Below are positions 11,547 to 30,767 of a DNA stretch of 49,752 nucleotides, in pieces. The translations under genes and the position numbers were made by a program. The stretch comes from Myxococcaceae bacterium (lineage in GTDB: Bacteria; Myxococcota; Myxococcia; Myxococcales; Myxococcaceae), in NCBI GenBank assembly GCA_016926755.1, contig JAFGNZ010000268.1:1-49752 (forward strand), in the 5' to 3' direction. The notes under the pieces are model-generated. The model made no database searches. It worked only from the letters and a program-made list of their open reading frames with translations, and was not told the origin of the DNA. Within the stretch, counting starts at the first letter, position 1, and each line of letters opens with the position of its first letter.

Positions 11547-12950
11547 ATGCTGAAGCGAATCGTACCTGCGCTCCTGGCGCTGCTGGGCACGGCTTGCGGC
11601 GACGACAACGAGTGCAAGCTGGATGATCCGAAGTCGTGCTCGGAGGAGCGGGTCTGCGAGCGGGTGAGCGGCCAGGAGCAGGCGAGGTGCTTCGCGCCCT
11701 TGCAGCTCCAGGGCAAGGTGTTCGATCTGTCCTCGGGCGCGGCGGTCGCGAACGCGGAGCTCACCGCGCTGGACATCAATGGCGCTCCCGTGACGGGCGT
11801 GGCGGTGAGCGGCGCGGACGGCCGGTACTCGCTGCGCATCCCGACGGAGCGCTCGGATGACAAGGGCACTCCGGTGGGGGCGCGGCTGACGCTGCGGGCC
11901 GGCGCGCAGGACTACCAGCCGTTCCCGGCCGGCCTGCGCGTGGCGCTGCCCATCGACACGGCGGCGGCCGCGAGCGCGGGTGAGGAGGAGCCCTGGGTGT
12001 TCTCCTCGGCGCAGACGGACGTGGGGCTGATCGCGGTGGAGGATGGGGCGCGGGGGCGCCCCGCGGTGTCCGGCACCGTCGAGGTGGCGCAGGGCCAGTC
12101 GGCGCTCGTCGTGATCGAGGGCAACGGCAGGGTGTACTCGGCCGTCGCCGACACCTCGGGACAGTGGAAGGTGTTCAACGTGGAGCCGGACGGCGGGTAC
12201 CAGGCCCAGGCGTACGTGAAGGGCGCCAACTACACGCCCGCGGACGTCACGGTGCAGGCGGGGGTGCAGAAGACGGGCGTGGCCATCCGGAAGGCCGGGG
12301 CCTCGAGCGCCACGCTGAGCGGTGACATCAACCTCGTCGCGGGGGCCAACGGGGCGGGCACCAGCGTGGTGATGGTCGTGGAGAGCACCTTCAACGAGGC
12401 GCTGGTCCGTGGCGAGGTGCCGCCGGGACTGCGCGCGCCGGAGCCGGGCATCGCTCCGAACATCACCGGCGCGTTCTCCATCACCGGCGTCCCGGATGGG
12501 AAGTACGTGGTGCTGGCGGCCTTCGAGAACGACGGCAATGTGCGCGATCCCGACCCGAACATCTCCGGCACGCAGATCGCCCGCATCACCGTGGCCAACG
12601 GCACGCCGAGCGCCAGCCCGTCCTTCAAGGTGACGGGCGCCATCCAGATGGTGGGGCCCGGCGCGGGCGAGTCCAGCGAGGAGGTGGTGGGCACGCCGAA
12701 GTTCACCTGGAAGCCCTACTCCAGCGCCAAGCTCTATGAGCTGCGTGTGTTCGACGTACAGGGCAACAAGGTCTGGGAGAACACCTCGATCTCCGACGTG
12801 AAGAACGCCGAGGGCAACATCGAGGTGAGCTACGCGGGCTCGGCGCTGACTCCGGGCGTGATCCATCAGTGGCGCGCCACCGCGAAGGGCCAGGCGGGCA
12901 ACCCCATCTCCGTGACCGAGGAGCTCCGCGGCCTGTTCACCGTGAAGTAG
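11547..12950 (+). CDS. Surface lipoprotein with carboxypeptidase-regulatory-like domains
   Basis: The 467-residue protein opens with a lipoprotein signal peptide; the lipobox LGTAC puts the lipidated cysteine at residue 17. CGDDNECK follows, a Cys-rich N-terminal linker typical of myxobacterial lipoproteins. Residues ~50-130 (GKVFDLSSGAAVANAELTAL, GADGRYSLRIP) look like a carboxypeptidase regulatory-like (transthyretin/Ig-like) module. Similar modules recur near residues 170-240 and 300-350. The C-terminal ~90 residues (KFTWKPYSSAKLYELRVFD) resemble an FN3-like domain. No enzyme motif is seen. It is probably an adhesive or structural surface protein. The next gene starts 38 bases downstream. 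Confidence 0.75.
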   Translation: MLKRIVPALLALLGTACGDDNECKLDDPKSCSEERVCERVSGQEQARCFAPLQLQGKVFDLSSGAAVANAELTALDINGAPVTGVAVSGADGRYSLRIPTERSDDKGTPVGARLTLRAGAQDYQPFPAGLRVALPIDTAAAASAGEEEPWVFSSAQTDVGLIAVEDGARGRPAVSGTVEVAQGQSALVVIEGNGRVYSAVADTSGQWKVFNVEPDGGYQAQAYVKGANYTPADVTVQAGVQKTGVAIRKAGASSATLSGDINLVAGANGAGTSVVMVVESTFNEALVRGEVPPGLRAPEPGIAPNITGAFSITGVPDGKYVVLAAFENDGNVRDPDPNISGTQIARITVANGTPSASPSFKVTGAIQMVGPGAGESSEEVVGTPKFTWKPYSSAKLYELRVFDVQGNKVWENTSISDVKNAEGNIEVSYAGSALTPGVIHQWRATAKGQAGNPISVTEELRGLFTVK

Positions 12951-12988
12951 TTGAGCCTCCGGGACGGCAGTGCCATGGTCGCCGGGCC

Positions 12989-15784
12989 ATGAAGCGCTTC
13001 CTGCCATTCCTTGCCCTGATCTCCTGTGCCACTCCGTCCTCCACCGGACCCACCCCGGAGCCTGAGTCGGCCGCCGCCACCTCGAAGGTGACCCTGCTGC
13101 CCGAAGAGGTGCGGCTGGCCGAGCTGCGCCAGCTCACCTTCGGCGGCGAGAACGCCGAGGCCTACTGGTCCTTCGACGGCAAGCAGCTCTCCTTCCAGGC
13201 GAGCCGCGGCGACATGGGCTGTGACCGCATCTTCCGCATGACGGTGGATCCGGTGGCCGAGGCCCAGGTCTCCAGCGGCAAGGGCGCCACGACGTGCGCG
13301 CACTTCCTGCCCGGGGACAAGGAGCTGATCTTCGCCTCGACGCACCCGAGTGGAGACGCGTGCCCGCCCAAGCCCGATCACTCGATGGGCTACGTCTGGG
13401 CGATCTACGACTCGTACGACATCTTCAAGGTGGGCGCCGATGGCAGCGGGCTGACGCGGCTGACGGAGGCCCCCGGCTACGACGCGGAGGGCACGGTCTG
13501 CGCCAGGGACGGCTCCATCGTCTTCACCTCGACGCGCGACGGAGACCTCGAGCTGTACCGCATGGACAAGGATGGCAAGAACGTGCGCCGGCTGACCCAC
13601 TCGCCGGGCTACGACGGGGGCGCGTTCTTCAACGCCGACTGCACGAAGATCGTCTGGCGCGCCTCGCGGCCCCAGCCGGGCAAGGCGCTCGAGGACTACC
13701 AGGCCCTGCTGGCGCGCGGGCTCGTGCGGCCCTCGAAGCTCGAGCTGTACGTCGCCAACGCCGATGGCTCCGACGCCCGGCAGATCACCTGGCTGGACTC
13801 GGCCGCGTTCGCGCCCTTCTTCCACCCGAACGGCAAGCGCATCCTCTTCTCGACGAACTACGGAGACCCGAAGGGCCGCGAGTTCGACATCTATGCCGTG
13901 GACATCGACGGCTCGAACCTGGAGCGCATCACCCACGCGCCGGGCTTCGACGGCTTCCCCATGTTCTCCCCCGACGGCAAGTGGCTGGCCTTCTCCAGCA
14001 ACCGCTCCACCGCCCCTGGGCAGCACGACACCAACATCTTCCTCGCGCGCTGGGTGGAGGACGCGAAGCCGGCCGCGCCCATCGCCGAGACCGCCGTGGA
14101 CCGGGTGGCCAGGGACGTCTCCTTCCTCGCCGCTCCGGAGCGGGAGGGGCGCGGCATCGGCACCTCTGGCATCGACGCGGCGGGCGCCCACGTGGAGGCG
14201 CGCTTCCAGGCCCTGGGGCTGAAGCCCGCGGGGGACAGCGGCTCCTTCCGCCAGTCGTTCCCGGTGACCACCGCGGTGAAGATCGGCCCGAAGACCCAGG
14301 TGAGGCTGGGCGGCACCGTCCTCCCGGGTGATGCGTACACGGCGCTCGGGTTCTCCGCGCAGGGCGTGGCGCAGGCGCCGCTGGTGCTCGCCGGCTATGG
14401 GATCTCCGAGCCCTCCCTGAAGGTGGATGACTACGAGCAGCTCGACGTGAAGGGGAAGATCGTGGTGGTGCGGCGCTTCGTGCCCGACTCCCCCGCCTTC
14501 TCCGAGACCGATGCGCAGCGCCGTCACGGGGATCTGCGCCACAAGGCCTGGACGGCGCGCGAGAAGGGGGCCAAGGCGCTCGTCGTCGTCGACTGGCCGG
14601 CGCCGCCTTCCCCGGCGCCGAAGGACTGGAAGCTGCCGTCCGAGGCGTCGCTGCCGGCGCTCGCCTCCGAGGGCCCCAGCGACGCCGGCATCCCGGTGGT
14701 GATCGTCAAGCGCGCCGCGCTCGAGCCGCTGATGGGCAAGCTGACCGAGGGCAAGCGCGTGGACGCGCGGCTCGAGGTGCACCTCGACTTCGAGCGGCGC
14801 CCGGCGTTCAACGTGGCCGGGCTGCTCGAGGCGGGCGCGCGCAAGCTGCCGGGGGCGATCGTGATCGGCGCCCACTATGATCACCTGGGCTTCGGCGGGC
14901 GCTACTCGCTCTCGCCCGACAAGCATGAGCCCCACGTCGGCGCGGACGACAACGCCTCCGGAGTGGCCGCGCTGCTCGAGATCGCCCGCTCCCTCTCGGA
15001 GCACCGCGCGCAGCTGGAGCGCGACGTGCTCTTCGTGGCCTTCTCCGGAGAGGAGACAGGGCTGCTCGGGTCGACCCACTTCACGCGCCTGCGCGGTGAC
15101 ACGGGCATGAAGGAGATCGCCGCCATGCTGAACCTGGACATGGTGGGGCGGCTGCGGACGAGCGGGCTGTCGGTGCTCGGGGCCGAGTCCGCCGCGGAGT
15201 GGGGCCCGCTCATCGCCGCCGCCTGCGAGAAGGCGCGAGTGGGGTGCTCGCCCAGCGGAGATGGCTACGGCCCGAGCGATCACTCGCCGTTCTACGCGTC
15301 GGGCGTCCCGGTGCTGCACTTCTTCACGGGCGCCCACTCCGACTACCACAAGCCCACGGACCTGCCCGGCGCCGTCAACGCCGCGGGCGCGGTGCAGGTG
15401 GCTCGCATCGTCTCCTCCATCGTCCAGGGGCTCGGCGAGAGGGCCACGCTCACCTACCGGAAGGTGCGCTCGCCAGCGCCGCGCGGCGACATGCGCAGCT
15501 TCAACGCCTCGCTCGGGACCATTCCAGACTACGCGGGGCTGCCCGGGGGCCAGAAGGGGATGATGTTGGCGGGCGTGCGCGGGGGCGGCGCGGCGGAGCA
15601 GGCCGGCATGCAGCGCGGTGACATCATCGTGAAGCTCGGCACGCACCCCATCGGCGGCGTGGAGGATCTGATGTACGTGCTCAACGCCTCCAAGCCCGGC
15701 GAGACGGTGACGGCGGTGATCCTCCGCGACGGCAAGGAGCTCAAGCTCGAGGTGACCTTCCAGGAGAGCAAGAGGCCCCGCTGA
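12989..15784 (+). CDS. M28 metallopeptidase lipoprotein with TolB-like propeller and PDZ domain
   Basis: The 931-residue protein starts at MKRFLPFLALISC, a lipoprotein-type signal with Cys13. Residues ~45-365 hold TolB/PD40 propeller repeats (AYWSFDGKQLSFQ, FSPDGKWLAFSSN). Residues ~370-610 hold an inserted PA-like region. Residues ~615-820 are an M28 aminopeptidase domain. Its dizinc ligands are visible: His in GAHYDHLG, bridging Asp in GADDNASG, catalytic Glu and Glu ligand in FSGEETGLLGS, Asp in LNLDMVGR, and His in SDYHKPTD. Residues ~840-931 form a PDZ domain (GAAEQAGMQRGDIIVKLG). It should be an exported peptidase that removes N-terminal residues from peptides. The in-frame start at 12869 would lie inside the upstream gene and is rejected. 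Confidence 0.9.
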   Translation: MKRFLPFLALISCATPSSTGPTPEPESAAATSKVTLLPEEVRLAELRQLTFGGENAEAYWSFDGKQLSFQASRGDMGCDRIFRMTVDPVAEAQVSSGKGATTCAHFLPGDKELIFASTHPSGDACPPKPDHSMGYVWAIYDSYDIFKVGADGSGLTRLTEAPGYDAEGTVCARDGSIVFTSTRDGDLELYRMDKDGKNVRRLTHSPGYDGGAFFNADCTKIVWRASRPQPGKALEDYQALLARGLVRPSKLELYVANADGSDARQITWLDSAAFAPFFHPNGKRILFSTNYGDPKGREFDIYAVDIDGSNLERITHAPGFDGFPMFSPDGKWLAFSSNRSTAPGQHDTNIFLARWVEDAKPAAPIAETAVDRVARDVSFLAAPEREGRGIGTSGIDAAGAHVEARFQALGLKPAGDSGSFRQSFPVTTAVKIGPKTQVRLGGTVLPGDAYTALGFSAQGVAQAPLVLAGYGISEPSLKVDDYEQLDVKGKIVVVRRFVPDSPAFSETDAQRRHGDLRHKAWTAREKGAKALVVVDWPAPPSPAPKDWKLPSEASLPALASEGPSDAGIPVVIVKRAALEPLMGKLTEGKRVDARLEVHLDFERRPAFNVAGLLEAGARKLPGAIVIGAHYDHLGFGGRYSLSPDKHEPHVGADDNASGVAALLEIARSLSEHRAQLERDVLFVAFSGEETGLLGSTHFTRLRGDTGMKEIAAMLNLDMVGRLRTSGLSVLGAESAAEWGPLIAAACEKARVGCSPSGDGYGPSDHSPFYASGVPVLHFFTGAHSDYHKPTDLPGAVNAAGAVQVARIVSSIVQGLGERATLTYRKVRSPAPRGDMRSFNASLGTIPDYAGLPGGQKGMMLAGVRGGGAAEQAGMQRGDIIVKLGTHPIGGVEDLMYVLNASKPGETVTAVILRDGKELKLEVTFQESKRPR

Positions 15785-17461: not shown

Positions 17462-18427
17462 TCAGCGCTTCTCGGAGGCCTCCGCTCGCCGAGCGCCCTC
17501 GATGATGTAGCGGGCCAGGGCGGCGGTGATGGCGTGCCCCAGCTTGTACTCGACGTCGTAGTACATGGGGGAGCTGTTCAGCTCGAGGAACACGTACTGG
17601 TCGCCCTGGTGCTTGATGTCGATGCCAGCGAAGTGCAGCCCGCACAGGCGCGCGGCCTTGCGGCACTGCTCCTCCACGGCGGCCGGCAGCTTCACCTCGC
17701 GGTACGTCGCCTCTCCCGACTTGTAGGCGGGGTCCGCCCGGAAATCGAGGTGCTGCTCGGGGGTGACGATGGCCACGCTGGAGACGATCTCGTCGCCCAC
17801 CAGCATCACCCGCAGATCATCCCCGGGGACGCACTCCTGGAAGGTGACGGGCGAGCGGGTGATCGCATCGAGTGACGCGAGCGCCTCCTCACCCAGGCGC
17901 TGGGTGATGGCTCCGCCCATCACGGGCTTGTAGATGACGTCCTTCACCTCGGCGTGGAAGGCGCGCACGCGCTCGGGATCATTGGAGATGAGCGTGCGGG
18001 GCACCCGGGCGCCCGAGGAGCGCAGGGCGTGGAGCTGGAAGGGCTTGAACTGGAGGACGCTGGCGGCGTGAGGGGGGTTCACCAGCATGGCGCCCTGGTG
18101 CTGGAGCTTGAGCAGCCAGGAGAGGAACACGGACGCGCGCTCGCGCGACTGCATGTAGTTCACGTACCAGTCGTCATAGAGGACGATCTCGTCGTCGCGC
18201 TGCAGCGTCGGCACGTGGGGCAGGGGGATGAAGCGCAGGAAGAAGCCGCGCAGGTCATCCATGCACTGGCGCCGGTAGAAGATGCTGCCGTCGTCGAAGG
18301 AGAGCGGCAGGCCCTGGTCCAGCGCGTCGCTCTCGATGATGACGCTGTCCACGCCGAGCGCCTTGGCCTCTCGGGCCAGGGACTGGCCCTGCAGATCGGT
18401 GCTGGCGCCGAAGATGCCGATTCTCAA
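17462..18427 (-). CDS. ATP-grasp peptide ligase, candidate graspetide macrocyclase
   Basis: The 321-residue protein starts with TTG, with GGGAG eight bases upstream; the reading begins directly with the first strand (MRIGIFGAS). The N-terminal pre-ATP-grasp region is followed by NPPHAASVLQFKPFQLHAL, then VIYKPVMGGAITQRLG (nucleotide-binding lysine and glycine loop), and FQECVPGDDLRVMLVG. The C-terminal metal-binding ELNSSP motif comes near residue 286. RimK, cyanophycin-type and MvdC/MvdD/PsnB-type enzymes share this fold and activate carboxylates as acyl phosphates. Its length matches graspetide ligases. The divergent neighbour, 131 bases away, encodes a repeat protein rich in Thr and Glu-Glu, which is how ring-forming precursors look. 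Ligase activity is well supported; macrocyclisation is an inference from context. Confidence 0.8.
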   Translation of the reverse strand: MRIGIFGASTDLQGQSLAREAKALGVDSVIIESDALDQGLPLSFDDGSIFYRRQCMDDLRGFFLRFIPLPHVPTLQRDDEIVLYDDWYVNYMQSRERASVFLSWLLKLQHQGAMLVNPPHAASVLQFKPFQLHALRSSGARVPRTLISNDPERVRAFHAEVKDVIYKPVMGGAITQRLGEEALASLDAITRSPVTFQECVPGDDLRVMLVGDEIVSSVAIVTPEQHLDFRADPAYKSGEATYREVKLPAAVEEQCRKAARLCGLHFAGIDIKHQGDQYVFLELNSSPMYYDVEYKLGHAITAALARYIIEGARRAEASEKR

Positions 18428-18558
18428 GGCGAAAACTCCCGGGAAGGAAAATTCGTCATGTGGGTCTGCAACTTTCTTTTGGATACCAGGAAAATCATTC
18501 TGGCGAGACTGTTTTTCAACCCGGATCCAAGGCGCGGTCAGGCCTGCTCGAGGATGCC
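18428..18558. promoter_or_regulatory. Divergent promoter region of the graspetide-like pair
   Basis: This 131-base gap is clearly more AT-rich than its surroundings (runs such as GGAAAATTC, CTTTCTTTTGG and CTGTTTTTCAA). It separates the divergent ATP-grasp and precursor genes, so both promoters should lie here. I could not assign a -35/-10 pair with confidence. Confidence 0.45.
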
Positions 18559-19539
18559 ATGAGCTCCAAGGTCGGTAGCAAGTCCTCTTCTTTCATCAAG
18601 TACGAGTCGCCCCGGAAGGCGGAGAGTGCCTCGGGCTCATCGGCCAAGAAGCTCGATTCGTCGGGAGGGAGTGCTGCGGGTCGGGTGAACCGCGACGGGT
18701 TCGATCGGCCGAAGACCGACAACCCCGCCGCTCGGAACCAGACGCATGGCATCCCCGAGGAGGGCGGCCGCGTTGGCGGCGGCGTCAAGCCGCCGATGAG
18801 GACGAAGGCGCTCCCCGAGGAGGGTGGCGGCATCGGGGGTGGCATCAAGCCGCCGATGAGGACGAAGGCGCTCCCCGAGGAGGGTGGCGGCATCGGGGGT
18901 GGCATCAAGCCGCCGATGAGGACGATGGCCTACCCCGAGGAGGGTGGCGGCATCGGCGGCGGCGTCAAGCCGCCGATGAGGACGATGGCCTACCCCGAGG
19001 AGGGTGGCGGCATCGGCGGCGGCATCAAGCCGCCGATGAGGACGATGGCCTACCCCGAGGAGGGTGGCGGCATCGGTGGCGGCATCAAGCCCCCGATGAG
19101 GACGCTGGCGATCCCCGAGGAGGGTGGCGGCATTGGCATCAAGCCCCCGCCGGCGCAGACGATGGCCTACCCCGAGGAGGGTGGCGGCATTGGCGGCATC
19201 AAGCCCCCGCCGATGCAGACGATGGCCTACCCCGAGGAGGGTGGTGGCATCGGCATCAAGCCCCCGCCGGCGCAGACGATGGCGTTCCCCGAGGAGGGTG
19301 GCGGCATCGGCATCGAGCCCCCGCCGGTGTACACGCTGGCGTTCCCTGAGGAGGGTGGAGGCATCGGCAACGAGCCCCCGACGATGCACACGCTGGCGTT
19401 CCCCGAGGAGGGCGGCGGCATCGGCATCGAGCCGCCTGTGATGCGGACGCTGGCCATCCCCGAGGAGGGCGGCGGCTTCGACATCAAGCCCCCTGTGATG
19501 CGGACGCTGGCCATCCCCGAGGAGGGCGGTGGCTTCTGA
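18559..19539 (+). CDS. Multi-core precursor peptide with 14 T-x-A-x-P-E-E-G-G-G units (candidate graspetide precursor)
   Basis: The 326-residue protein starts at ATG 18559, preceded by GAGG at seven bases; the in-frame ATG at 18460 lies in the AT-rich promoter gap. Residues 1-61 are a polar Ser/Lys-rich leader (FIKYESPRK) without a signal peptide or double-glycine site. From Thr62 on, 14 units follow, starting at T62, 82, 102, 122, 142, 162, 182, 201, 221, 240, 259, 278, 297 and 316; the last ends with the protein. All 14 have Thr at position 1 and Pro-Glu-Glu-Gly-Gly at positions 5-9. Units end in a Gly-rich spacer and (K/E)PP. Thr opposite paired Glu is the usual acceptor/donor set of ATP-grasp-made omega-ester peptides, and T-x-x-Y-P recalls the microviridin core T-x-K-Y-P-S-D. 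No peptidase or exporter is adjacent. Confidence 0.75.
   Translation: MSSKVGSKSSSFIKYESPRKAESASGSSAKKLDSSGGSAAGRVNRDGFDRPKTDNPAARNQTHGIPEEGGRVGGGVKPPMRTKALPEEGGGIGGGIKPPMRTKALPEEGGGIGGGIKPPMRTMAYPEEGGGIGGGVKPPMRTMAYPEEGGGIGGGIKPPMRTMAYPEEGGGIGGGIKPPMRTLAIPEEGGGIGIKPPPAQTMAYPEEGGGIGGIKPPPMQTMAYPEEGGGIGIKPPPAQTMAFPEEGGGIGIEPPPVYTLAFPEEGGGIGNEPPTMHTLAFPEEGGGIGIEPPVMRTLAIPEEGGGFDIKPPVMRTLAIPEEGGGF
18742..19539 (+). repeat. Tandem 60/57-bp coding repeat, 14 copies
   Basis: The first six units are 60 bases each; later units are 57 bases, except the eighth (60), and the last is truncated at the stop. Units 2 (18802-18861) and 3 (18862-18921) are identical base for base, and units 4-6 differ by single bases. 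Later units diverge in the Gly spacer and in Lys-to-Glu at the KPP site. The array has grown by internal duplication with selection on the T....PEEGG core. Confidence 0.92.
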
Positions 19540-20410: not shown

Positions 20411-21754
20411 ATGACCCTCTACAACAAGTTCCAGCTGATCGCGTACCACGTGCCGACCGACCGGCCCTTCAAGACGAAGGACGATCAGCTCCCGCAGGAG
20501 AACAGGCTACCGGCGGGAAAGCCCTGTCCGATCGAGTCCGACAGGCTGAAGGACCTCGAGCAGGAGCTGGCCAACGAGCTGAGCGCCGATGCGCTGAGCC
20601 GCCTCAAGCGGATGATCGCCGTGGTGGAGAAGGCCTCGGCGTCGCCCCTCATCGACCCCACGGCGAACACGCTGAAGATCTTCATGGCGCCGGAGTTCTA
20701 CTTCCGGCCGGAGGCGAAGGGGAACGCGTCCTGGAGCTACACCCAGGCCGAGAAGGGGCTCATCGAGCAGGCCCTGAAGAAGGTCTTCAGTGACGAGAAG
20801 AAGTACGCGAGCTGGCTGCTCGTCCTCGGCACCATCGTCTGGAACCAGAAGGCCAGCGATTTCTTGAAGCAGCTGCCCCAGCTGGACAACGCCCAGGACC
20901 CAGCCCTGGCGAAGATCGGGGACGCTCCGCTGCTCTGGAACGCGGCGCTCGTCATGGAGGGTGGCACCAACACCCTGGCCTCCTTGAACAAGAAGCTCTA
21001 CTCGGGCGCAGACGACATCGAGCCCGAGTTCCAGCCCAACGCCATGGCCAAGGACAAGACGAAGCTGGATCAGCTCGAGAAGAAGAACGCCATGAAGGTG
21101 AGGGACTATCTGCAGACGTTCAAGAATGAGAGGCAGCTGGAGTCCATCTTCCCGGTGGGCGACAACCTCACGGTCAGCCTCGAGATCTGCGCGGACCACG
21201 CCAGCGGAATGGCCAACCTGGCCTACAAGAAGCTGAAGAAGAAGTACCCCCAGGTCGATCTCCAGCTCGTGACGGCGTGCTCCGTGCGCGTGCAGCAGGA
21301 CGTCCTCGTCATCGGCAAGGACCAGTTCGTGCTCAGGATGGACGGGGCGGGCACGCTCACTCCGGAATGGCCAGGGCCCTGGGATCAGTCCGAGATCCAG
21401 AAGGTGCTGAGCAAGGTCAACGAGAAGTGCGTCACGAGCGCCCGCTACGACAGGGACAACCTGGCGGCGCAGAAGAGCCAGGTGTGGAAGGACATCAATG
21501 TCGTCGAGGACGAGATCCTCCTGGATGGGGCGCTGAAGCTCGACACGGGGAATCTGGTGGTCCGGCGCCTCAAGGAGGACAACCAGGGGCTGCATCACGC
21601 CTGGATGAGCGTGGACGAGGCCTTTCCCCAGAAGCTCGTCATCTATCAGCCGCGTGACTTCGAGCATGGGCTCGTGAAGGGGGACGAGTTGCCACCGCAG
21701 GGTGTCCAGCAGGACGCAGCGCCACTGAACGCAGCGCCGCAGGTCAACAACTGA
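20411..21754 (+). CDS. Nitrilase-fold (carbon-nitrogen hydrolase-like) protein
   Basis: The 447-residue protein starts at ATG with AAGGAGC upstream. The Glu-Lys-Cys triad of the nitrilase superfamily can be traced. Glu95 lies in IFMAPEFYF, like the 'FPE' motif. Lys194 or Lys195 lies in LNKKLYSGADDIE, and Cys260 in VSLEICADHASG, like the 'GxxICYD' motif. Family enzymes hydrolyse or transfer amides and nitriles through a Cys thioester. The protein is longer than most members (260-330 residues), with extra helices before the Glu and about 180 residues after the Cys. There is no signal peptide. It leads a four-gene operon; the next gene starts 21 bases on. Substrate is unknown. Confidence 0.7.
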   Translation: MTLYNKFQLIAYHVPTDRPFKTKDDQLPQENRLPAGKPCPIESDRLKDLEQELANELSADALSRLKRMIAVVEKASASPLIDPTANTLKIFMAPEFYFRPEAKGNASWSYTQAEKGLIEQALKKVFSDEKKYASWLLVLGTIVWNQKASDFLKQLPQLDNAQDPALAKIGDAPLLWNAALVMEGGTNTLASLNKKLYSGADDIEPEFQPNAMAKDKTKLDQLEKKNAMKVRDYLQTFKNERQLESIFPVGDNLTVSLEICADHASGMANLAYKKLKKKYPQVDLQLVTACSVRVQQDVLVIGKDQFVLRMDGAGTLTPEWPGPWDQSEIQKVLSKVNEKCVTSARYDRDNLAAQKSQVWKDINVVEDEILLDGALKLDTGNLVVRRLKEDNQGLHHAWMSVDEAFPQKLVIYQPRDFEHGLVKGDELPPQGVQQDAAPLNAAPQVNN

Positions 21755-21775: not shown

Positions 21776-24700
21776 ATGAACTCCCAGGAGCTGAAAGAGA
21801 AGCTGGCGATCTCCCAGGGCGTCCTCCGCCTCTCGCAAGGCGCGCTGACGGCGGCGGTGCGGGACTTCCTCAACACCTACTACGAGGGCCAGCCCCTCGT
21901 GATCACCGACGCCCAGCCCGGCCCGGAAGGGGAGCCCGCGGGCACGATCCAGCTCACGGGCCGCTCGAGCTTCCTCAACGTCCCCGATCTGCCGGTCTCG
22001 GCCCGCTTCTCCGTTGACGAGCAGGGCGAGGTCCACGCGCTGCTGAAGTACCGCCTGCGTGAGGAGGCCCCCGGACCGGCCGCGTGGACGTTCTCCCGCA
22101 GCTTCCCCAAGCTGCCCCCGGTCATCGACTACGACACCGAGCTGCCGAGGGGCTCCGCGCTGGGCAACTTCAGGCTGAGCGACAACCAGCGCCCCTTCCT
22201 GGACGCGCTCGATCTGTTCGACACGTACTTCGTCGTCTCCACGCACGCCGGGAAGGATCCCGAGCTGGGCGTGCCGCTGGAGGTGGGCCTCAACTTCGTC
22301 AGCAGGCTGCGGCCCCAGGGCATGTTGGGGGTGCTCGAGCACACCCTGGGAGAGGCGCCCTCGCTCCTGCTCTACGGCACCATCCGCCTCCCCAAGGCCA
22401 CGGACATCACGCTGCCGCTCCTGCCGATGCAGCTGCCCTGGGACCAGCCCACCGCGCCGGGCATCCACCTCCAGGCGGCGCTCGACGCGGACCTCGAGCT
22501 GGGCGGCCTGCGCTTCAACCGCGCGTGCTTCCGTGTCTACAGCCCTCCCTCCCTGGAGTGGATGGCCGCGAATCCCTCCTTCGAGCCCGTGCACGGCTAC
22601 GCGGGGACGCTCGCCATCCCGAGCGCGGGCATCGAGCTCCAGCTCGGGGCGCGGCTGCAGTGGAACCTGCCCCAGGCGCTCCTCTTCGCCGAGTGCAAGG
22701 GCATCACGCTCGGCAAGATGGCTCACCTGCTGGACCTCGCGGGCACCGGTGACCTCACGGCGTACCTGCCCGAGGAGCTGCGCAAGCCCATCGAGGCGCT
22801 GGGCTCATTGGAGCTCATGTACGTGGGCGTGGAGCTCGGCCTCTCGGGGCTCACCCCGGTGCTCGACACGGCCTACTTCACCGTGGGCTTCCCACGGCTG
22901 AAGTGGAAGGTCTGGGGGGATCACCTCGAGGTTGAGGAGCTCTCCTGCCACTTCGTGATCCCATCTCCCCTTGCTGCCAGCACTACTCCCACGAGCCAGC
23001 CCGCTGTCTCCGTCACGATGTTCGGCACCCTCGAAGTGGAAGGGGTGCCCCTGGCCATCCGTGCCAGCAATGATCGGGGCTTCACCGTCAGCGCCGCGAC
23101 GAAGGGGAAGGTGAGCCTGCCGCTCGACAAGCTGCTGGCGGCCTATGCGCCGGGTGTCCCCACGCCGAGCGCGCTCACCATCAACCAGCTGGGGGTGAAC
23201 GTCTCGCTGGGCAAGTCCTACTCCATGTCCGCGATCCTGGCGGGCGAGCCCGAGCCGTGGACCATCCCCCTGGGCCCCGAGAAGCTCGAGATCGCCGACG
23301 TGACGCTCAACTTCTCCTATCCGACGGGGGGCCCGCTCGCGGGCTCCTTCGGTGGGAAGATCACCTTCGCCGAGGGGATCCAGCTCCGCGCGAGGTATGG
23401 CATCCCGGGCAACTTCGCCGTCGAGGGCCACTTCCCGCGGGTGAAGCTCTCGAACCTGATCGAGAAGCTGTGTGATCAGAAGGTGGACCTGCCCGGTGGC
23501 TTCGACCTGGTCCTCGACGACTCGGCCGTGCTGATCCAGAAGCAGGGGGACAGCTACATCTTCCGGCTCTGCTGCGGGGTGAAGGACTTCGGGGTGTTCG
23601 CCTTCGAGGTGCGCAAGGTCAGCGGGGGCAAGTGGGGCTACGCCGCGGGCATGGATCTGAGCGGGGGCAGGCTCTCGCAGCTCCCTGGGCTCTCGGGCCT
23701 GCGCGTGATCGAGGACGCCTTCACGCTGCAGAAGCTCATGCTCGTGGTGTCCTCGTTCCAGGACGCGAGCTTCCAGTTCCCGACCCTGGCGCAGTTCAAC
23801 CGGCCGCAGCTCGCCACGAAGAATCTGGCCCTGCCAGCGCAGACGAGCGGCGTCAGCCCCGGGCTGATGCTGTTCGCCGAGTGGCGGCTGGACACCGGGG
23901 ACCGCCAGCAGAACCTGCTGTCGAAGCTGCTGGGGCTCGGCATCACTCAGTCGGTCACGCTGGCGGTCAGCCCGGATCCGATGAAGAGCTCCCGGCTGTA
24001 CGTGAGCCAGCGGGCCACGATCCAGGGACACCCGTTCTCCTGCACGTTCGGCGTCGAGCTCCAGAGCGGCAAGCCGAACCTGTTCCTGACGGGCTCGCTC
24101 ACCTGCAGGATCCAGGGGCAGCCCCAGACCTTCGACGTGACGATGGCGTTCGCGCCTGGCGGCGCCTTCTTCTCGGGGACGATGAAGGGCGCGACGGCGA
24201 TCAACTGCGGGCCGTTCAAGCTCAGCAACCTGGCGCTCGAGGTGGGCGTGAACTGGGCCGGCATCCCCAGCCTGGGCGTCGCCGCCACCATCGACGTGAA
24301 GAAGTTCCAGTCCTCGGTGGCGGTCTTCTTCGACTCCACGGATCCCTCCCGGAGCCTGGTGGCCGGCTCCTTGAGTGATCTGACGCTCGAGGACGTGGTG
24401 GACTCGCTGGTGGGCGGCGCCGCTCCGTCTCCTCTGGACGAGATCCTCGGGGGCATCGCCGTCAAGGGCACGCGCGAGTTCTCCATCCCGGGCGATCTGG
24501 CCGACGAGCTGGATGGGCTGGCCTTCGACAAGGTGTCATCCGCCTTCTCCACCGCCGCGAAGATCCAGATCCCGTCGTCCGCGTCGCAGCTGCTGCTCGT
24601 GGTGAACAAGAAGGGCTCGGCGTGGCACCTGACCGACCTGACCACGATGCGGCACTACCAGCTCGAGAAGCGCGGCGACACGATCGCCGTGTCGATCGCG

Positions 24701-25600
24701 CCGCAGTTCTACTTCGCGCCGCAGGCCACCTCCATCGGCAGCCTCCGCTATCCGCAGGGCTTCTACCTCAACGCCGCGATCGCGTTCCTGGGGTTCAAGG
24801 CCGAGGCCACGATCGACATCTCCACCAGCAAGGGGGCCTCGATCGACGCCCAGATGGACCGGATCGCCCTCGGCAACGAGAAGCTCTTCTGCATCTCGGC
24901 CGAGCAGGGCCCGGGCGGCCCCCGGATCTCGGCCTCGACGTTCACCCAGCCCGACCACCCGGTGAAGGAGTTCCGGCCCCCGCACTTCTACGTCAACGGC
25001 AGCCTCGTGCTGCTGGGCATCAAGCGCAGCGTGTACGCCAGCCTCAGCTCGAAGGGCCTGGTGTTCGATCTGCAGGGGCCACTCGTCCCGGGCGTGAACT
25101 TCAATGTCCAGGCGCGCCTGGGCGGCGATGGGCTGGACGCCAGCGGCGAGATCAAGGTCGGTGTCGGGACGCTCGATCTGGGTAAGCTGGGCAAGGTGCG
25201 CCTCCAGACCGAGCTGAAGGGCAAGCTGGAGCTCGAGATCAGCGCGAAGGAGATCGTGATCGCCGCCGAGGCGAGCTTCGAGTTCACCGGTCAGCAGGTG
25301 CACATCGGCAGGTTCAAGCTGGACGCGAAGCCCGATGTCCTCAAGGAGCTGCCCGAGCAGCTGGCCCGCAGGGCGGAGAAGGAGCTGACCGCGCTGTTCT
25401 CGGACATGGGCAAGTGGGCCAGCGCGGTCCAGGACGGCCTGGTCGACGGCGTCCAGGACACGGCGAAGGTGTTCGAGGACGTCTACGGCAAGGGCGCGAA
25501 GGAGGCCAGCAAGGAAGTCTCGAAGGGCGCCAAGAAGGCCGGCAAGGAAGTCTCGAAGGGCGCCAAGAAGGCCGGCAAGAAGCTCAAGAAGCTCTTCTGA
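21776..25600 (+). CDS. Very large beta-rich protein with Lys-rich C-terminal tail, function unknown
   Basis: The 1,274-residue protein has no signal peptide or clear membrane helix. Most of it alternates short hydrophobic strands and turns in repeated modules of about 100-150 residues (for example TLEVEGVPLAIRASNDRGF, ATIQGHPFSCTFGVELQSG, AFLGFKAEATIDISTSKG). The strands alternate polar and apolar residues, as in long beta-sheet or barrel-like folds. The last ~35 residues form a Lys/Ala/Gly helix with the unit KEVSKGAKKAG twice. I do not recognise a named family; similarity to uncharacterised long DUF proteins is possible but unverified. Position within the operon suggests it works with the nitrilase-like enzyme upstream and the two paralogs downstream. 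It may be a structural, carrier or toxin-like component. Confidence 0.7.
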   Translation: MNSQELKEKLAISQGVLRLSQGALTAAVRDFLNTYYEGQPLVITDAQPGPEGEPAGTIQLTGRSSFLNVPDLPVSARFSVDEQGEVHALLKYRLREEAPGPAAWTFSRSFPKLPPVIDYDTELPRGSALGNFRLSDNQRPFLDALDLFDTYFVVSTHAGKDPELGVPLEVGLNFVSRLRPQGMLGVLEHTLGEAPSLLLYGTIRLPKATDITLPLLPMQLPWDQPTAPGIHLQAALDADLELGGLRFNRACFRVYSPPSLEWMAANPSFEPVHGYAGTLAIPSAGIELQLGARLQWNLPQALLFAECKGITLGKMAHLLDLAGTGDLTAYLPEELRKPIEALGSLELMYVGVELGLSGLTPVLDTAYFTVGFPRLKWKVWGDHLEVEELSCHFVIPSPLAASTTPTSQPAVSVTMFGTLEVEGVPLAIRASNDRGFTVSAATKGKVSLPLDKLLAAYAPGVPTPSALTINQLGVNVSLGKSYSMSAILAGEPEPWTIPLGPEKLEIADVTLNFSYPTGGPLAGSFGGKITFAEGIQLRARYGIPGNFAVEGHFPRVKLSNLIEKLCDQKVDLPGGFDLVLDDSAVLIQKQGDSYIFRLCCGVKDFGVFAFEVRKVSGGKWGYAAGMDLSGGRLSQLPGLSGLRVIEDAFTLQKLMLVVSSFQDASFQFPTLAQFNRPQLATKNLALPAQTSGVSPGLMLFAEWRLDTGDRQQNLLSKLLGLGITQSVTLAVSPDPMKSSRLYVSQRATIQGHPFSCTFGVELQSGKPNLFLTGSLTCRIQGQPQTFDVTMAFAPGGAFFSGTMKGATAINCGPFKLSNLALEVGVNWAGIPSLGVAATIDVKKFQSSVAVFFDSTDPSRSLVAGSLSDLTLEDVVDSLVGGAAPSPLDEILGGIAVKGTREFSIPGDLADELDGLAFDKVSSAFSTAAKIQIPSSASQLLLVVNKKGSAWHLTDLTTMRHYQLEKRGDTIAVSIAPQFYFAPQATSIGSLRYPQGFYLNAAIAFLGFKAEATIDISTSKGASIDAQMDRIALGNEKLFCISAEQGPGGPRISASTFTQPDHPVKEFRPPHFYVNGSLVLLGIKRSVYASLSSKGLVFDLQGPLVPGVNFNVQARLGGDGLDASGEIKVGVGTLDLGKLGKVRLQTELKGKLELEISAKEIVIAAEASFEFTGQQVHIGRFKLDAKPDVLKELPEQLARRAEKELTALFSDMGKWASAVQDGLVDGVQDTAKVFEDVYGKGAKEASKEVSKGAKKAGKEVSKGAKKAGKKLKKLF
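25511..25576 (+). repeat. Perfect 33-bp tandem duplication in the Lys-rich tail
   Basis: Bases 25511-25543 and 25544-25576 are identical and encode KEVSKGAKKAG twice. A partial third unit follows (AAGAAGCTC...). The array encodes a charged helix at the end of the large protein. Confidence 0.95.
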
Positions 25601-26470: not shown

Positions 26471-27253
26471 ATGAGCAACCTGATTCCAGTGGGCACTCAG
26501 CAGGGGCAGTCCCCCGTGGCGGCGGCCTCGGCCTCGCCGGCGGCGTCCTTCACCAGCTTCCGCGTGAGCCAGGACTTCTTCACGGGCGAGCAGGCCTTCA
26601 CCTCGAGCATCGGGAAGTTCAGCGACGCGAGCTCGGCGTCCAAGGGGGCGGTGGTCGTCTACGAGGCGATGATGCTCACCGATCAGGAGGAGACGCGGAC
26701 CATCGAAGGGGTGCGGTGGAGCGTGCGGTATGGCGCGGGCATCCGGCTGGAGATCACCGTCAAGGAGGCCAAGTCGGAGATGCGGTTCGACGCCTACGCC
26801 ATCGCGCTCAACGCCAGCATCAACAACACCCAGGCGGAGTACGAGGTGAAGCTGATCGGGCTGGACGCCGAGCGGCTCAAGGGGGTGAGCATCCCCGGGA
26901 TCGGCGAGTTCAACTATGACAGCTACGAGAAGCTCATCACGACGGTGGAGGCCGTGCGGCAGTACATGGTGAGCGACGGGGCCCAGCTGACGCCCTCGCT
27001 GAGCCACGTGCGGCTGGGCCGGGCCCCGGGCGCGGTGGATCTGCGCGAGGCCCAGAGCGTCATCTTCGGTGTCCAGAAGCTGGCCCGCGGGACGACGCTG
27101 CTGTCCGCGCTCGCCGACGCACAGGAGAAGCAGCTCAACGCCAACGTCATTCGCGCGGTCTACCAGGAGCTCGCCGGCAGCGCCTCCGAGCAGCAGGATC
27201 CCACCAAGGAGGCGAGGCGCCGCGCGGAGTCGTGGCTGGAGCTCGCCTCGTAG
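26471..27253 (+). CDS. Paralog B of the four-gene operon, unknown function (260 residues)
   Basis: It starts four bases after the preceding stop, with GGAGGG upstream. The region VVVYEAMMLTD, then VRYGAGIRLEITVKEAKSEM, then AIALNASINNTQAEYEVKLIGLD matches paralog A's TYDAMRYTE, WGAGFRVMVTIWDL and ELGMVNASFEIVGFG. Both proteins contain a SSAS segment before it. The N-terminus is Ala/Ser-rich (AAASASPAASFTSF) and low complexity. The two copies within one operon suggest a hetero-oligomer or two subunits of one assembly. It lacks an obvious enzyme motif. Confidence 0.7.
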   Translation: MSNLIPVGTQQGQSPVAAASASPAASFTSFRVSQDFFTGEQAFTSSIGKFSDASSASKGAVVVYEAMMLTDQEETRTIEGVRWSVRYGAGIRLEITVKEAKSEMRFDAYAIALNASINNTQAEYEVKLIGLDAERLKGVSIPGIGEFNYDSYEKLITTVEAVRQYMVSDGAQLTPSLSHVRLGRAPGAVDLREAQSVIFGVQKLARGTTLLSALADAQEKQLNANVIRAVYQELAGSASEQQDPTKEARRRAESWLELAS

Positions 27254-27258
27254 AGGCG

Positions 27259-27276
27259 GCCGGGCTTCTCCCCGGC
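27259..27276. terminator. Short GC hairpin between convergent operons
   Basis: GCCGGG pairs with CCCGGC around CTTCTC. It lies between the stop of paralog B (27253) and the stop of the convergent NTPase gene (27280). The six-base stem makes it a weak candidate. Confidence 0.35.
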
Positions 27277-27279
27277 GGC

Positions 27280-27936
27280 TCAGGGCGGTGGCGGCGGCTC
27301 GGCGCTTGGACGGAAGTGGGCGCGGCAGCACTCCGGGAGCTCCGTGCGGATGTGCATCAGCGCGTGCTGGGCCTTCTCCAGGAAGTCGCTCGTGTTGGGG
27401 ATGATGAAGCGCCGGGGGTGATCCCGCCACACGTGCTCGATGCGAGCGTCGATGGCGGCGGCCTCCTCGGGGGACTCGGTGCGCAGGGGGTTGTGGTGGT
27501 TGTAGCCGGCCTCTGCGGGCGGGGTCCGCAGGTGGATGACGGTGGCGTAGCGGGCCAGCTGCGCCTCTCGGGTGGTGCCCAGCTCGGCGAAGAAGTCCTC
27601 CGGGGAGCCAGGCCAGTACGCCAGCCCATCCAGCACGCCCCGGTCACACAGGGCGAGGGCCACGGGCTCCTCCTCGGTGACCCAGCGCTCCAGCTCCTGC
27701 TGGACGCGGGCGATGGCGCGCTGCGCGGCGCGGCGGGCGGGGCGGGTGTCCCGGCGGGGGAAGCCGCCGCCGAAGATGATGCTCGCGGACTCGGGGAGCA
27801 GGGCCACGTGCTGGCACAAGGTGCGGCGGACCAGCTCCAGCACGGCGGTCTTTCCGGCTCCCGGCCCACCCGTGAGCACGATCAGGCGCGTGGTGTGCGA
27901 GGTCCTGTCGCAGCCGCACTGCTGGTCACCCAACAC
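27280..27936 (-). CDS. AAA/P-loop NTPase (AAA_28, Ttd14/NadR-like)
   Basis: The 218-residue protein starts with GTG, with GGGAGGAG four bases before it. The Walker A GGPGAGKT lies at residues 23-30. A Walker-B-like strand with CDRGVLDGLAYWPG follows, and then the helical Arg-rich region DARIEHVWRDHPRRF. These features match the AAA_28 group, which includes the kinase part of NadR and Ttd14-like ATP/GTP-binding proteins. It could be a small-molecule kinase or a regulator. It follows the outer-membrane beta-barrel gene by 33 bases and may be the last gene of the cytochrome operon. Nothing in the sequence links it to heme or redox work. Confidence 0.8.
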   Translation of the reverse strand: MLGDQQCGCDRTSHTTRLIVLTGGPGAGKTAVLELVRRTLCQHVALLPESASIIFGGGFPRRDTRPARRAAQRAIARVQQELERWVTEEEPVALALCDRGVLDGLAYWPGSPEDFFAELGTTREAQLARYATVIHLRTPPAEAGYNHHNPLRTESPEEAAAIDARIEHVWRDHPRRFIIPNTSDFLEKAQHALMHIRTELPECCRAHFRPSAEPPPPP

Positions 27937-27969
27937 GTGGCTCCTCCCTTCTCGGTAGCGCGGCCGGGC

Positions 27970-29760
27970 TCAGAAGGTACCGCCGAGGCTCGCGTGGCCG
28001 ACGAGCCCGCCGGACGGGGTGGCGTCCTCGCCGGGAGGGGTGAGATCGAACCGGCCCAGCACCGAGAGGCGCACGGTGAGCCAGCCGGCGGGGGCGATCT
28101 CTGCGCTGGTGTAGAGGGACATGTCGCGCGCGGGGAGGGCGTCCGTCGCCTCGGGGATCGGCGAGTCCTCGAAGTAGCCCACGCGCGTCAGCAGGCGCAG
28201 GGCGGAGAAGGGCTGGAGCACCGCCTGGACATGGGCGCTGCGGCCCTTCTGCCAGCCCAGCTCCTCCAGGTAGCCCAGGGAGACGCCGCCCCGCGAGCCG
28301 AAGAGGCGGGGGAAGGACAGCTCGGGGCCCGCGAGCTGCCGCGCGAGCGCCGTCTCGATGTCGCGCGCCAGCAGCCCCGTCAGCCCCGCCGAGAACCACG
28401 GCGCCGGCTGCCAGGCGGCCACCACGTCGGCGTGGAGCGCCCGGGTGCCCAGGTCCAGGCCGTCCAGCGGCGGCATGTCCAGCAGGGTGGTTCCGTCGTA
28501 GCGGACCGCGCCCGAGAACCTCAGGGTGTCATGAGGGCGGAGCTCCACGTCCACCCGCGCCGCGTCCACGGCCGCCGGGGCCTGGGCATCACCGATCCCC
28601 AGGCGCACCCAGGCGCCCACGTCCGTGTGCCGTCCCAGCCAGGCCCGCCCGCGGCCCTCCACCTCGACGCGCGTGGAGGACTCGGGGAAGGACATGTACG
28701 AGACGCGGGTCTCGTACTGGAGCAGCCGCACCGTGGCGTCCTCCTCGCCCGAGTGCCGCCCCGCCAGGTACACGCCCGCGGCCAGCCGCTGGAACGAGGG
28801 CCTGAGCGTCACCGGGTCCGGCACGCCGCCGCCGAAGCCACCCACCTCGAAGTCACCATCCCTGCTGCGCCAGCCGATCTGCGCGCCGTCGAACACGGCC
28901 ACCCCAGGCACGAACCAGGGCCAGACGCGGCCCACGGCGAGCGCGAGGCGCTGGCCGGGCTCCCGGGCCACCAGCTCGCCCTCACGGACGTAGAGCTGGG
29001 CCAGCGTGCGCGCCGGCGAGCGGAAGCCGCTCGGGCGCCGGGTCCACCCCAGCGCCGTGGCGTCGAGGTACAGGCGGAGCCCCAGCGCCACGGGCATCCC
29101 CTGCAGCCTCACGTCGGCGCGCTCCTGGTGGAAGGGGCTCGCGGTGTTGGTGACCCAGCTCGTGTGGCCCACGCGCAGATCGATAGGAGCGCGGGTGCTC
29201 GTGCGCTGGCCCTTGAACGAGATGAGCGGGTGGGGAGTGGCGTCGATCGCGGCGCGCCACTGGGCGATCAGCGCGGGGGCGGCGGGAGCGGGCCGTGGCG
29301 CGGGAGCGGGCTCCTCGGGGCGCTGCGGGAGGGCGAAGCGATCTCCCTGGCGGGACCCCTGACTCTGGCAGGTGGCGTGGTGATCGGCCACCCACTCCAC
29401 GCGGCAGCTCCCCGCGGACCGGCCGCGCCGGGTGAGCGCCAGCTCCGTGCCTGGGGTGAGCCCCTCCTCCTTGCCCCGATCCAGGTAGGCGCGGCCGCTG
29501 TTCACGTAGGTGACAGTGCCCTGCCCGGGCGAGCGCGGACGAGCAGGCGCGGAGGCGGGGCGCGCTTCAGCGGGAGGGGCGCTCGGGGGCGGTGGCTCCG
29601 CGGCCTGAGGGGGGGCGGCTGGGGCCTTGGGCGTGCGCTTGTTCGTCCTGGCGGGAGCGCGCTTGCGCCCCTGGGCCTCCGTGCGCCCATGAGAGGGCGC
29701 GGCGGAGACCTCCGCCCCCACGAGGAGCCCAAGCAGGAGGAGCACGGAGGTGCGCGTCAA
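27970..29760 (-). CDS. Predicted outer-membrane beta-barrel of a porin-cytochrome conduit
   Basis: The 596-residue protein starts with TTG, overlapping the stop of the upstream cytochrome gene by four bases (TTGA). A Sec signal peptide covers about residues 1-21. A Pro/Ala-rich linker spans residues ~25-88, and an SH3-like module (GTVTYVNSGRAYLDRGKEEG) residues ~90-155. From about 175 to the C-terminus, alternating amphipathic strands (VALGLRLYLDATAL, FEVGGFGGGVPDP, HADVVAAWQPAPWF) end in Phe, a typical barrel signal. It has no MtrB-type CXXC. Because it lies downstream of three multiheme cytochrome genes, I infer that it is the porin that lets electrons cross the outer membrane. An unrelated porin or lipid transporter cannot be excluded. 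Confidence 0.7.
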   Translation of the reverse strand: MTRTSVLLLLGLLVGAEVSAAPSHGRTEAQGRKRAPARTNKRTPKAPAAPPQAAEPPPPSAPPAEARPASAPARPRSPGQGTVTYVNSGRAYLDRGKEEGLTPGTELALTRRGRSAGSCRVEWVADHHATCQSQGSRQGDRFALPQRPEEPAPAPRPAPAAPALIAQWRAAIDATPHPLISFKGQRTSTRAPIDLRVGHTSWVTNTASPFHQERADVRLQGMPVALGLRLYLDATALGWTRRPSGFRSPARTLAQLYVREGELVAREPGQRLALAVGRVWPWFVPGVAVFDGAQIGWRSRDGDFEVGGFGGGVPDPVTLRPSFQRLAAGVYLAGRHSGEEDATVRLLQYETRVSYMSFPESSTRVEVEGRGRAWLGRHTDVGAWVRLGIGDAQAPAAVDAARVDVELRPHDTLRFSGAVRYDGTTLLDMPPLDGLDLGTRALHADVVAAWQPAPWFSAGLTGLLARDIETALARQLAGPELSFPRLFGSRGGVSLGYLEELGWQKGRSAHVQAVLQPFSALRLLTRVGYFEDSPIPEATDALPARDMSLYTSAEIAPAGWLTVRLSVLGRFDLTPPGEDATPSGGLVGHASLGGTF

Positions 29761-30767
29761 GGCTTGTCACCGTTCTGATGGCAGCCGCTGTTCACGCACG
29801 TGGCGGATTCGTAGCGGTAGGTGGCGAAGTTCTGGTGCTTGTCGTCCATGGCACCCTTGGAGTGGCAGGACAGGCAGTCGAAGGGATCGAAGTCCTGCGC
29901 CCAGGGCTTGTCCGTCCGGGAGACGGGGTGACACTCGAGGCACGACGTCCGGAAGTGCCCGGTGCCTTGGCGGATGGAGAAGGGCGTGTGGCCGGACACG
30001 GAGTGCACCTGCGAGTCGCCGTGGCAGCGGACGCAGCGGGCGGAGTCGCGGGCGTACCCGCCGACCTGGCTGTGCTCCGGATCCGTCTCGGCGGCGGTGT
30101 GGCACGTCACGCAGTCCAGCACCTTGCGGTTGGCGCGAGTCGGGTGACACTGGCGGCACGAGATCCCCCCGTGCGAAGTGCCCGCCTCGGTGGGGAACCA
30201 GGCGGTATGATCGACGCCGGTGATGTTGCCCTGGGGGTGGCACTCCAGGCACTTGGGGCTGGTCCAAGCGTAGTTCGCGATGCCGTTGTGGATCGCGTCG
30301 GTCTCGGCCGCCGAGTGGGTGTGACAGCCGATGCAGTCCACCACCTTCCGGTTGGTGCGATCCGTGTGGCAGGTGGCGCACGTGATGCCGGTGTGGATGG
30401 TGCCGGCGCCGATCGGGAAGCTGGTGTGATTCACCGCCGTGGCCGTGCCGTCGGGGTGGCACTCGTAGCAGCGGGTCCCGCTCCACGAGTAGTCCGCCAC
30501 GCGGACGTGGGTGGGGTCCGTCACCTCCTGCGCGTGATCGTGGCAGCTCACGCAGTTGAACTCCTTGAAGGTGTCGAACTCGCCGTGACAGGTGTTGCAG
30601 TCGGCGAGCGCGTGCACGCCCGTCGCAATCGGGAAGTCGGTGTGCGTCTCGTGATTCAGCGCCGTCACGGAGGGAGCCTTGCGGCCCCCCTCGTGCTCAC
30701 CGCAGGTGGTGAGCAGCAGGACTGACAGCACCACGCACGAGCACCGCACCAGGAAAGAGTCGGACAT
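29757..30767 (-). CDS. 12-heme c-type cytochrome lipoprotein
   Basis: The 336-residue protein begins MSDSFLVRCSCVVLSVLLLTTC, a lipoprotein signal, with GGAGGT upstream. Eleven CXXCH motifs (CNTCH, CVSCH, CYECH, CATCH, CIGCH, CLECH, CRQCH, CVTCH, CVRCH, CLECH, CLSCH) are followed by one CX4CH (CVNSGCH) at the end, so up to 12 hemes. Repeated H-T-xFP-x-x-xG-T-xHxG segments between motifs supply distal His ligands. It should be attached to the outer membrane, possibly facing outward, and pass electrons along the heme wire. It lies 22 bases downstream of the 10-heme gene and overlaps the barrel gene. It is not a known MtrC/OmcA type by sequence. Confidence 0.85.
   Translation of the reverse strand: MSDSFLVRCSCVVLSVLLLTTCGEHEGGRKAPSVTALNHETHTDFPIATGVHALADCNTCHGEFDTFKEFNCVSCHDHAQEVTDPTHVRVADYSWSGTRCYECHPDGTATAVNHTSFPIGAGTIHTGITCATCHTDRTNRKVVDCIGCHTHSAAETDAIHNGIANYAWTSPKCLECHPQGNITGVDHTAWFPTEAGTSHGGISCRQCHPTRANRKVLDCVTCHTAAETDPEHSQVGGYARDSARCVRCHGDSQVHSVSGHTPFSIRQGTGHFRTSCLECHPVSRTDKPWAQDFDPFDCLSCHSKGAMDDKHQNFATYRYESATCVNSGCHQNGDKP

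Follow-up and report, generated by a model that had tools for sequence, protein, structure and literature searches.

In a 49,752-nucleotide stretch of DNA from a Myxococcaceae bacterium (contig JAFGNZ010000268.1 of the assembly GCA_016926755.1; the whole stretch is called the window below), an ATP-grasp ligase gene is paired with a divergent gene for a protein of 14 tandem core units. It is fairly likely that the two genes form a graspetide system in which the single Thr of each unit is joined to the first Glu (Glu7) of the following Glu pair, giving one ring per unit and up to 14 rings per chain, the product probably being a multi-headed protease inhibitor. The ligase belongs to the graspetide ligase family, and the precursor lies beside it with a leader and with cores in which the donor precedes the acceptor. 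In contrast to the window core, the relatives mostly have 1–18 units of T[TS]xAxGEE, a plesiocin-like core with two Thr and two Glu residues.

The Gene Pair and the Repeat Units

The ligase gene (321 amino acids, TTG start, motifs VIYKPVMGG and ELNSSP) lies at 17462–18427 on the minus strand. A divergent intergenic region of 131 bases (18428–18558) separates it from the precursor gene (326 amino acids, ATG start, 18559–19539, plus strand). The precursor consists of a 61-residue leader (18559–18741) and 14 tandem units of [RQYH]-T-[MLKH]-[AG]-[YLIF]-P-E-E-G-G (18742–19536). The ligase with its length and motifs, the divergent layout across 131 bases, the 61-residue leader, and the 14 units had been described in the initial annotation, which was made from the DNA sequence alone, and they were found again without change. 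The leader sequence SSSFIKYESP resembles the leader motif of relatives, such as SFIRYELP, SFIKYETP, and PFTRYELP.

Two numberings are used here: within the window units, the Thr is unit position 1, while in the comparison of cores the Thr is position 2, followed by Pro6, Glu7, and position 8. In all 14 units, the Thr at unit position 1 and P-E-E-G-G at unit positions 5–9 do not vary. Unit positions 3 and 10 are Ala and Gly, respectively, in 13 units each, the exceptions being one Gly at the former and one Arg at the latter. The other residues are more variable: R8, Q4, Y1, and H1 precede the Thr; M6, L5, K2, and H1 follow it; and Y5, I4, F3, and L2 precede the Pro. The units are 57 or 60 bases in length, with a spacing of 20, 20, 20, 20, 20, 20, 19, 20, 19, 19, 19, 19, and 19 residues. 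The Thr and Glu codons are identical throughout, and all codon differences in the PEEGG columns are synonymous (CCC/CCT and GGC/GGT/GGA).

The T-x-A-x-P-E-E-G pattern was searched in the DNA of the same genome. There were 14 matches on the forward strand (13 of them within the precursor gene) and one on the reverse strand, while the reversed control pattern gave one and one. Thus, the repeat array is not a chance occurrence. The initial annotation had suggested looking for this unit beside a ligase in other genomes; among the matches listed for 92 family genomes, one other close pair was found, namely two units beside the closest ligase relative (genome G080). For the precursor itself, searches of Pfam, NCBIfam, PADLOC, and the PDB sequences gave nothing, and its single PHROGs match is 12 residues long and of unknown function (E 1.9e-4).

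The Ligase Resembles PsnB

By its sequence and predicted fold, the window ligase is a graspetide ligase, and PsnB, the ligase of plesiocin, is the closest to it among solved structures. A RimK-like ATP-grasp domain was detected by Pfam. In NCBIfam, TIGR04187 (GRASP_SAV_5884; ATP-grasp ribosomal peptide maturase) ranked first with 110.8 bits, followed by MvdC (73.9) and MvdD (70.8). Since all of these scores are under the curated cutoffs (350 for TIGR04187), the ligase is a divergent member. In the PDB sequence search, 7drm was far in front (E 2.8e-44, with the runner-up at 8.1e-17). A fold predicted from 18 sequences (mean predicted local distance difference test score 85.9) best matched 7drp PsnB (E 2.2e-25, template modeling score 0.80/0.83), and the matches after the PsnB entries were MdnC, AMdnB, PruB, a Chryseobacterium ligase, and RimK. 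The identity in this fold search was 30–34% for PsnB versus 16–20% for the listed RimK, LysX, and ArgX entries, and 105 of 289 aligned residues are identical between the window ligase and PsnB. The residues D270, E282, and N284, which I take to be the ATP-grasp metal site, are present. When compared with the columns conserved at ≥90% in the ligases of two-Thr precursors, the window ligase has a novel residue at only 11 positions outside the C-terminal tail. No other ligase match was found in the window.

Distribution of the Ligase and Its Precursor

A close ligase (E 1e-60 or better) is present in 25 of 96 family genomes, including the genome of the window, and ligase relatives at 1e-50 are present in 32 of 195 genomes of the phylum. 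A collection of organism-named sequences gave 27 ligase loci (the weakest, at 26–34%, being distant), including those of Archangium, Pyxidicoccus, Hyalangium, and Myxococcus. Two metagenome-assembled genomes (MAGs) labelled as cyanobacteria have ligases of 47–50% identity (L099 and L101). The two-Thr cores there number two and four, respectively, and lie on longer frames; transfer between phyla is possible. A Sericytochromatia MAG has a ligase of 39% identity.

Precursors were examined in 27 close loci, 26 of them at the family-level threshold and one from the phylum search. A core-bearing frame adjoins the ligase in 26 of the 27, on the opposite strand each time. It lies downstream of the ligase in a convergent arrangement in L035 and is fused to the ligase in L037, while the others are divergent and adjacent to or overlapping the ligase start. 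The sole exception is L036 (G056), whose contig begins inside the ligase; the missing end of the ligase was found on another contig, together with a precursor of 11 units. This co-occurrence, along with the NCBIfam ranking and the PsnB match, supports the proposal of the initial annotation that the pair is a graspetide system. The annotation had also expected the repeat protein to occur together with the ligase. This holds for the 26 loci, but the contig of a homologue in G052 carries no ligase, and thus the co-occurrence is not universal. The two precursor searches scored at most 11–12 first-look candidates per genome, and more precursors may exist. No precursor was recognized for the G183 ligases (L140 and L141), and weak matches in G156, G025, G049, and G103 (25–28% identity), which are probably low-complexity sequences, were set aside. 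A precursor of the L014 type had no PDB match.

Is there a third gene? An all-against-all comparison of frames of at least 100 codons from 21 loci, one of them a 10 kb part of the window, at E 1e-10 revealed no third conserved gene: the window frames in common were the ligase, its antisense shadow, and one 64-residue overlap with L085 only. Since nothing but the ligase frame is generally common to the 20 compared loci, the conserved system seems to consist of the ligase and the precursor alone.

Comparison of Single-Thr and Two-Thr Cores

Core units were counted behind named leader anchors, which gave 184 units for the two-Thr set (24 precursors) and 31 for the single-Thr set (four precursors, with 14 units in the window, 11 in G052, four in G087, and two in G080). 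False pattern matches were removed: ESGGPRPR of L002 and GSKGKPKP of L011 from the two-Thr set, and two matches past the L154 array (residues 309 and 317) and MTKALPEL ahead of the L143 array from the single-Thr set. The latter might itself be a unit.

Position 1 is Thr or Ser in 184/184 two-Thr units and in 0/31 single-Thr units. Pro6 shows the reverse distribution (0/184 versus 31/31), while Glu7 is present in all units of both sets (184/184 and 31/31). Position 8 is E183 and D1 in the two-Thr units versus E16, D11, and N4 in the single-Thr units. The residue after the Thr in the 184 two-Thr units is L64, M54, K45, Q9, A4, R4, E3, or H1. Nine extra precursors with no anchor or with a more distant ligase (L014–L017, L038, L099, L101, L102, and L145) have 24 two-Thr units, in which Pro6 was found in 0/24 and Glu7 in 23/24. 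The initial annotation had compared the window core with the microviridin core TxKYPSD; the nearer relative is the plesiocin-like T[TS]xAxGEE core, of which the window core is the single-Thr form.

The other single-Thr precursors are as follows. G080 (L081:2151-2733, G080:C321) has the closest ligase relative, with 74% identity over its second half, and a quick tree places it in one clade with the window ligase (Shimodaira–Hasegawa-like approximate likelihood ratio test support 98, although only 47% of the G080 ligase is covered). G087 (L143:3319-3948, G087:C547) has four TxAxPENP units with a single Thr, a single Glu, and the same Pro beside its own ligase, which is 40% identical to that of the window and belongs to a different ligase branch; the leader of this precursor is also of another type. 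G052 (L154:4295-5986, G052:C175) encodes a protein of 530 residues from the ATG before SSSFVNY, with 11 RTMA[HF]PEDGG units followed by 252 residues; the 564-residue frame of this repeat protein had no Pfam match.

Some distant loci have mixed or different units. The Sericytochromatia MAG (L102:2375-3001) has four units of the TTxAxGEEGG type mixed with three TK[MA]IGEN units. Two repeat proteins near a distant ligase of G181 (L146:739-1446 and 2185-2826, the second including a masked stretch) have VTIQPIEED and VTSQAVGEED units, respectively. In G113 (L144:4977-5564), a precursor with VTTLPAGGAEEAGG units, in which the spacing from the Thr to the Glu pair is wider, lies beside a ligase of 38% identity.

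Proposed Ring Formation

The plesiocin-type (group 2) core motif is TTxxxxEE, with two adjacent Thr and two Glu residues. Plesiocin has two esters per repeat as a ring within a ring and inhibits serine proteases, and the inhibition becomes stronger with more repeats (PMC13097080, PMC12291112). The plesiocin system (PsnA-PsnB) and the window pair both have tandem cores on one precursor, Thr donors ahead of a Glu pair, and one ligase. On the other hand, the window has 14 units rather than the four given for plesiocin, and its cores have a single Thr and a Pro before the Glu pair.

In the proposed scheme, the ligase would use SSSFIKYE, the conserved motif of the leader, as its docking site, spend ATP to activate the side chain of a Glu, and then form an ester with the Thr within that unit, unit by unit. 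The outcome would be a six-residue Thr-x-Ala-x-Pro-Glu ring in each repeat, up to 14 per chain, each formed with the loss of 18 Da. Because the plesiocin-type rings are nested, the inner ring would be Thr2-Glu7 and the outer ring Thr1-Glu8. The window core is a relative of this plesiocin-like two-ring core (TTxAxGEE) and probably derives from it: the outer donor Thr1 would have been lost, Pro would have replaced Gly at the turn, and the inner Thr2-Glu7 pair would have been kept. The drift of position 8 to Asp or Asn fits an acceptor that lost its role. The turn Pro may pre-shape this loop. It is conceivable, as a tentative view, that the 14 single-ester rings arose from a two-ester ancestor which gave up the outer ester as the turn Pro took over the pre-shaping of the loop. 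By analogy with plesiocin, the product is probably a long multi-headed serine-protease inhibitor, the specificity of which would be set by whichever residue (M, L, K, or H) follows the Thr.

Which Glu is used? In a rather unlikely variant of the same system, the ester would link the Thr to Glu8, or either Glu would be used with mixed ring sizes, Glu8 being an acceptor or needed for binding. Glu8 does occur in every unit of the window (14/14) and of G080 (2/2), but position 8 is Asp in 11/11 units of G052 and Asn in 4/4 units of G087, while position 7 is Glu in 31/31. A second bond from another donor, either the Lys of the K-P-P spacer or a Lys or Tyr present in some units, would leave the units bicyclic. 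I give this little credence. A spacer Lys does lie ≤8 residues before the Thr in 10/14 units; however, it is replaced by Glu before three units and is missing before unit 1, and the residue at position 1 is variable. The two-Thr relatives carry the same spacer Lys (e.g., IKPPPMTTKALGEEGG). Thus, this Lys looks like a linker feature and is unlikely to be a replacement donor.

It is similarly improbable that the pair is inactive, with repeats expanded by slippage and a relic ligase, as seems to be the case at a second locus of the same genome and in G080. The ligase at that second locus (L002) has lost the presumed metal-site Asp, the G080 locus is broken, and the window core deviates from the family motif. 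However, the window ligase retains the presumed metal site with only the few unique departures noted above, the in-frame repeats retain T and PEEGG with synonymous changes only in PEEGG, and the altered core is also found in G052 and G080. Finally, it is very improbable that the ligase adds free amino acids to the repeat protein without crosslinking (RimK-like glutamylation), since, despite the RimK Pfam domain, TIGR04187, MvdC, and MvdD outscore the RimK models and PsnB is nearest by fold at the higher identity given above.

Several observations weigh against the one-ring scheme with Thr2-Glu7 pairing and against its family context. Glu8 is kept in all 14 window units, though it has no Thr partner in this scheme. 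One of the two units of L038, a two-Thr precursor, is TTLAVGKEGG with Lys at position 7. The three TK[MA]IGEN units of the distant L102 are single-Thr units with Gly at position 6, and the VTIQPIEED units of the distant L146 have a single Thr with the Pro one place earlier. Since Pro6 accompanies the single Thr in two ligase lineages but L102 and L146 differ, Pro6 is not required in every lineage. Units within one precursor are not independent, and perhaps two or three lineages have the single-Thr state. In G080, the locus is broken: the ligase lacks an internal stretch and runs into the final two units of the precursor, due to either decay or misassembly. The ligase is absent from the 14.7 kb contig of the G052 precursor, and the sole close ligase of G052 adjoins a two-Thr precursor. 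The leader of that precursor, SSSFVRY, is similar to SSSFVNY. Judging from these leaders, it is possible that the G052 ligase acts in trans on the 11-unit precursor. The window ligase lies outside the clade of PsnB itself: in the quick tree, whose branches are long, PsnB clusters with L014–L017 (support 100) and the window ligase with the other clan. Lastly, no linked peptidase, transporter, or target protease was found.

Comparison with Other Graspetides

The Myxococcaceae graspetides with 1–18 T[TS]xAxGEE cores share with the window pair the two-gene opposite-strand layout, the leader motif, the unit frame, and the small residues after the Glu pair, and their ligases are 56–68% identical in full-length matches. 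They differ at position 1 and Pro6, as counted above. They may belong to groups 34 or 35 in the classification of Carter et al. 2026. Plesiocin membership was rejected for the window pair despite the similar workings, because the first Thr is missing in 14/14 units and the ligase belongs to another clade.

Cores with fewer linkages have precedents in Gra-5, chryseoviridin, and corallotide. Single-ring cores are also reportedly the subject of Zhao et al. 2021, going by its title. Gra-5 (group 2, Glaciecola sp. KUL10) lacks one donor-acceptor set, like the single-Thr window core, and one dehydration was seen (Nat Commun 2022, PMC9576775). Its authors considered the modification inefficient and assigned no position to the ring (PMC9576775). 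Chryseoviridin and AMdnA, the multi-core microviridins, also have several cores per precursor, but the cores are of the microviridin type with MvdC/D-type ligases. Independent losses of one linkage are known in chryseoviridin cores (PMC8939145). Microviridin membership was rejected, since the window core has no Lys or Ser-Asp and there is one ligase match in the window rather than MvdC plus MvdD. Corallotide (group 15, Corallococcus) is also a myxobacterial product of a long precursor with one ring per repeat. It has five repeats, each with a KxxxD lactam hydroxylated by an oxygenase, and its cluster includes a beta-lactamase homologue (PMC13097080). In contrast, the window cores are TxAxPEEGG, and no oxygenase was found among the nine window neighbours scanned with Pfam.

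No paper describing this core was found in a literature search; supplements and the main graspetide-group papers were outside its reach, so absence from print is unproven. PEEGGG as a search term gave one paper, on lipid nanoparticles, and neither PEE nor EEG occurs in the main text of PMC8939145.

Neighbouring Genes and Other Loci of the Genome

Pfam hits among the nine window neighbours (E 1e-4) were an M28 peptidase, a palmitoyl-thioesterase-like lipase, and a carboxypeptidase-regulatory-like domain; the other six had no match at this threshold. The M28 peptidase, with PD40 repeats and PA and PDZ domains, is encoded upstream of the pair (12869–15784) and has no counterpart in the 20 relatives' loci compared. 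Long frames at 20411–21754, 21776–25600, and 27232–29778 (447, 1274, and 848 amino acids) are among those without a Pfam match. A defence or phage origin was rejected, since no PADLOC model matched and the only PHROG of the ligase is RimK-like (E 1.8e-13). No megablast match to plasmids was found.

The same genome has a second ligase of this clan (L002, G000:C279:9488-10426), 57% identical, beside a one-core TTLAVGEESG precursor. It groups with the same-genus ligases L010 and L011 in the tree. Because its presumed metal-site Asp is changed to Gln (GIDIK to GFQLK), L002 looks inactive and, judging from the sequence, is probably a dying copy. Neighbouring MvdC-like and MvdD-like ligases (L003 and L004, G000:C245:22343-24267) are likely a microviridin-type locus, and more such ligases were found on C38, C156, and C310.

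Implications

The absence of Thr1 together with the presence of Pro6 in two separate ligase lineages suggests that inhibitor loops with one ring and with two rings may replace each other in evolution. The window pair and its relatives offer a natural comparison of one ring and two rings on one graspetide scaffold with related ligases, which would allow direct tests of what the outer ester does and of how the ligase selects its donor and acceptor. Modification of all units would make this protein, with its 14 rings, a very heavily crosslinked graspetide. The array would then be a multi-headed protease inhibitor in which the residue presumed to set the specificity differs among the units.
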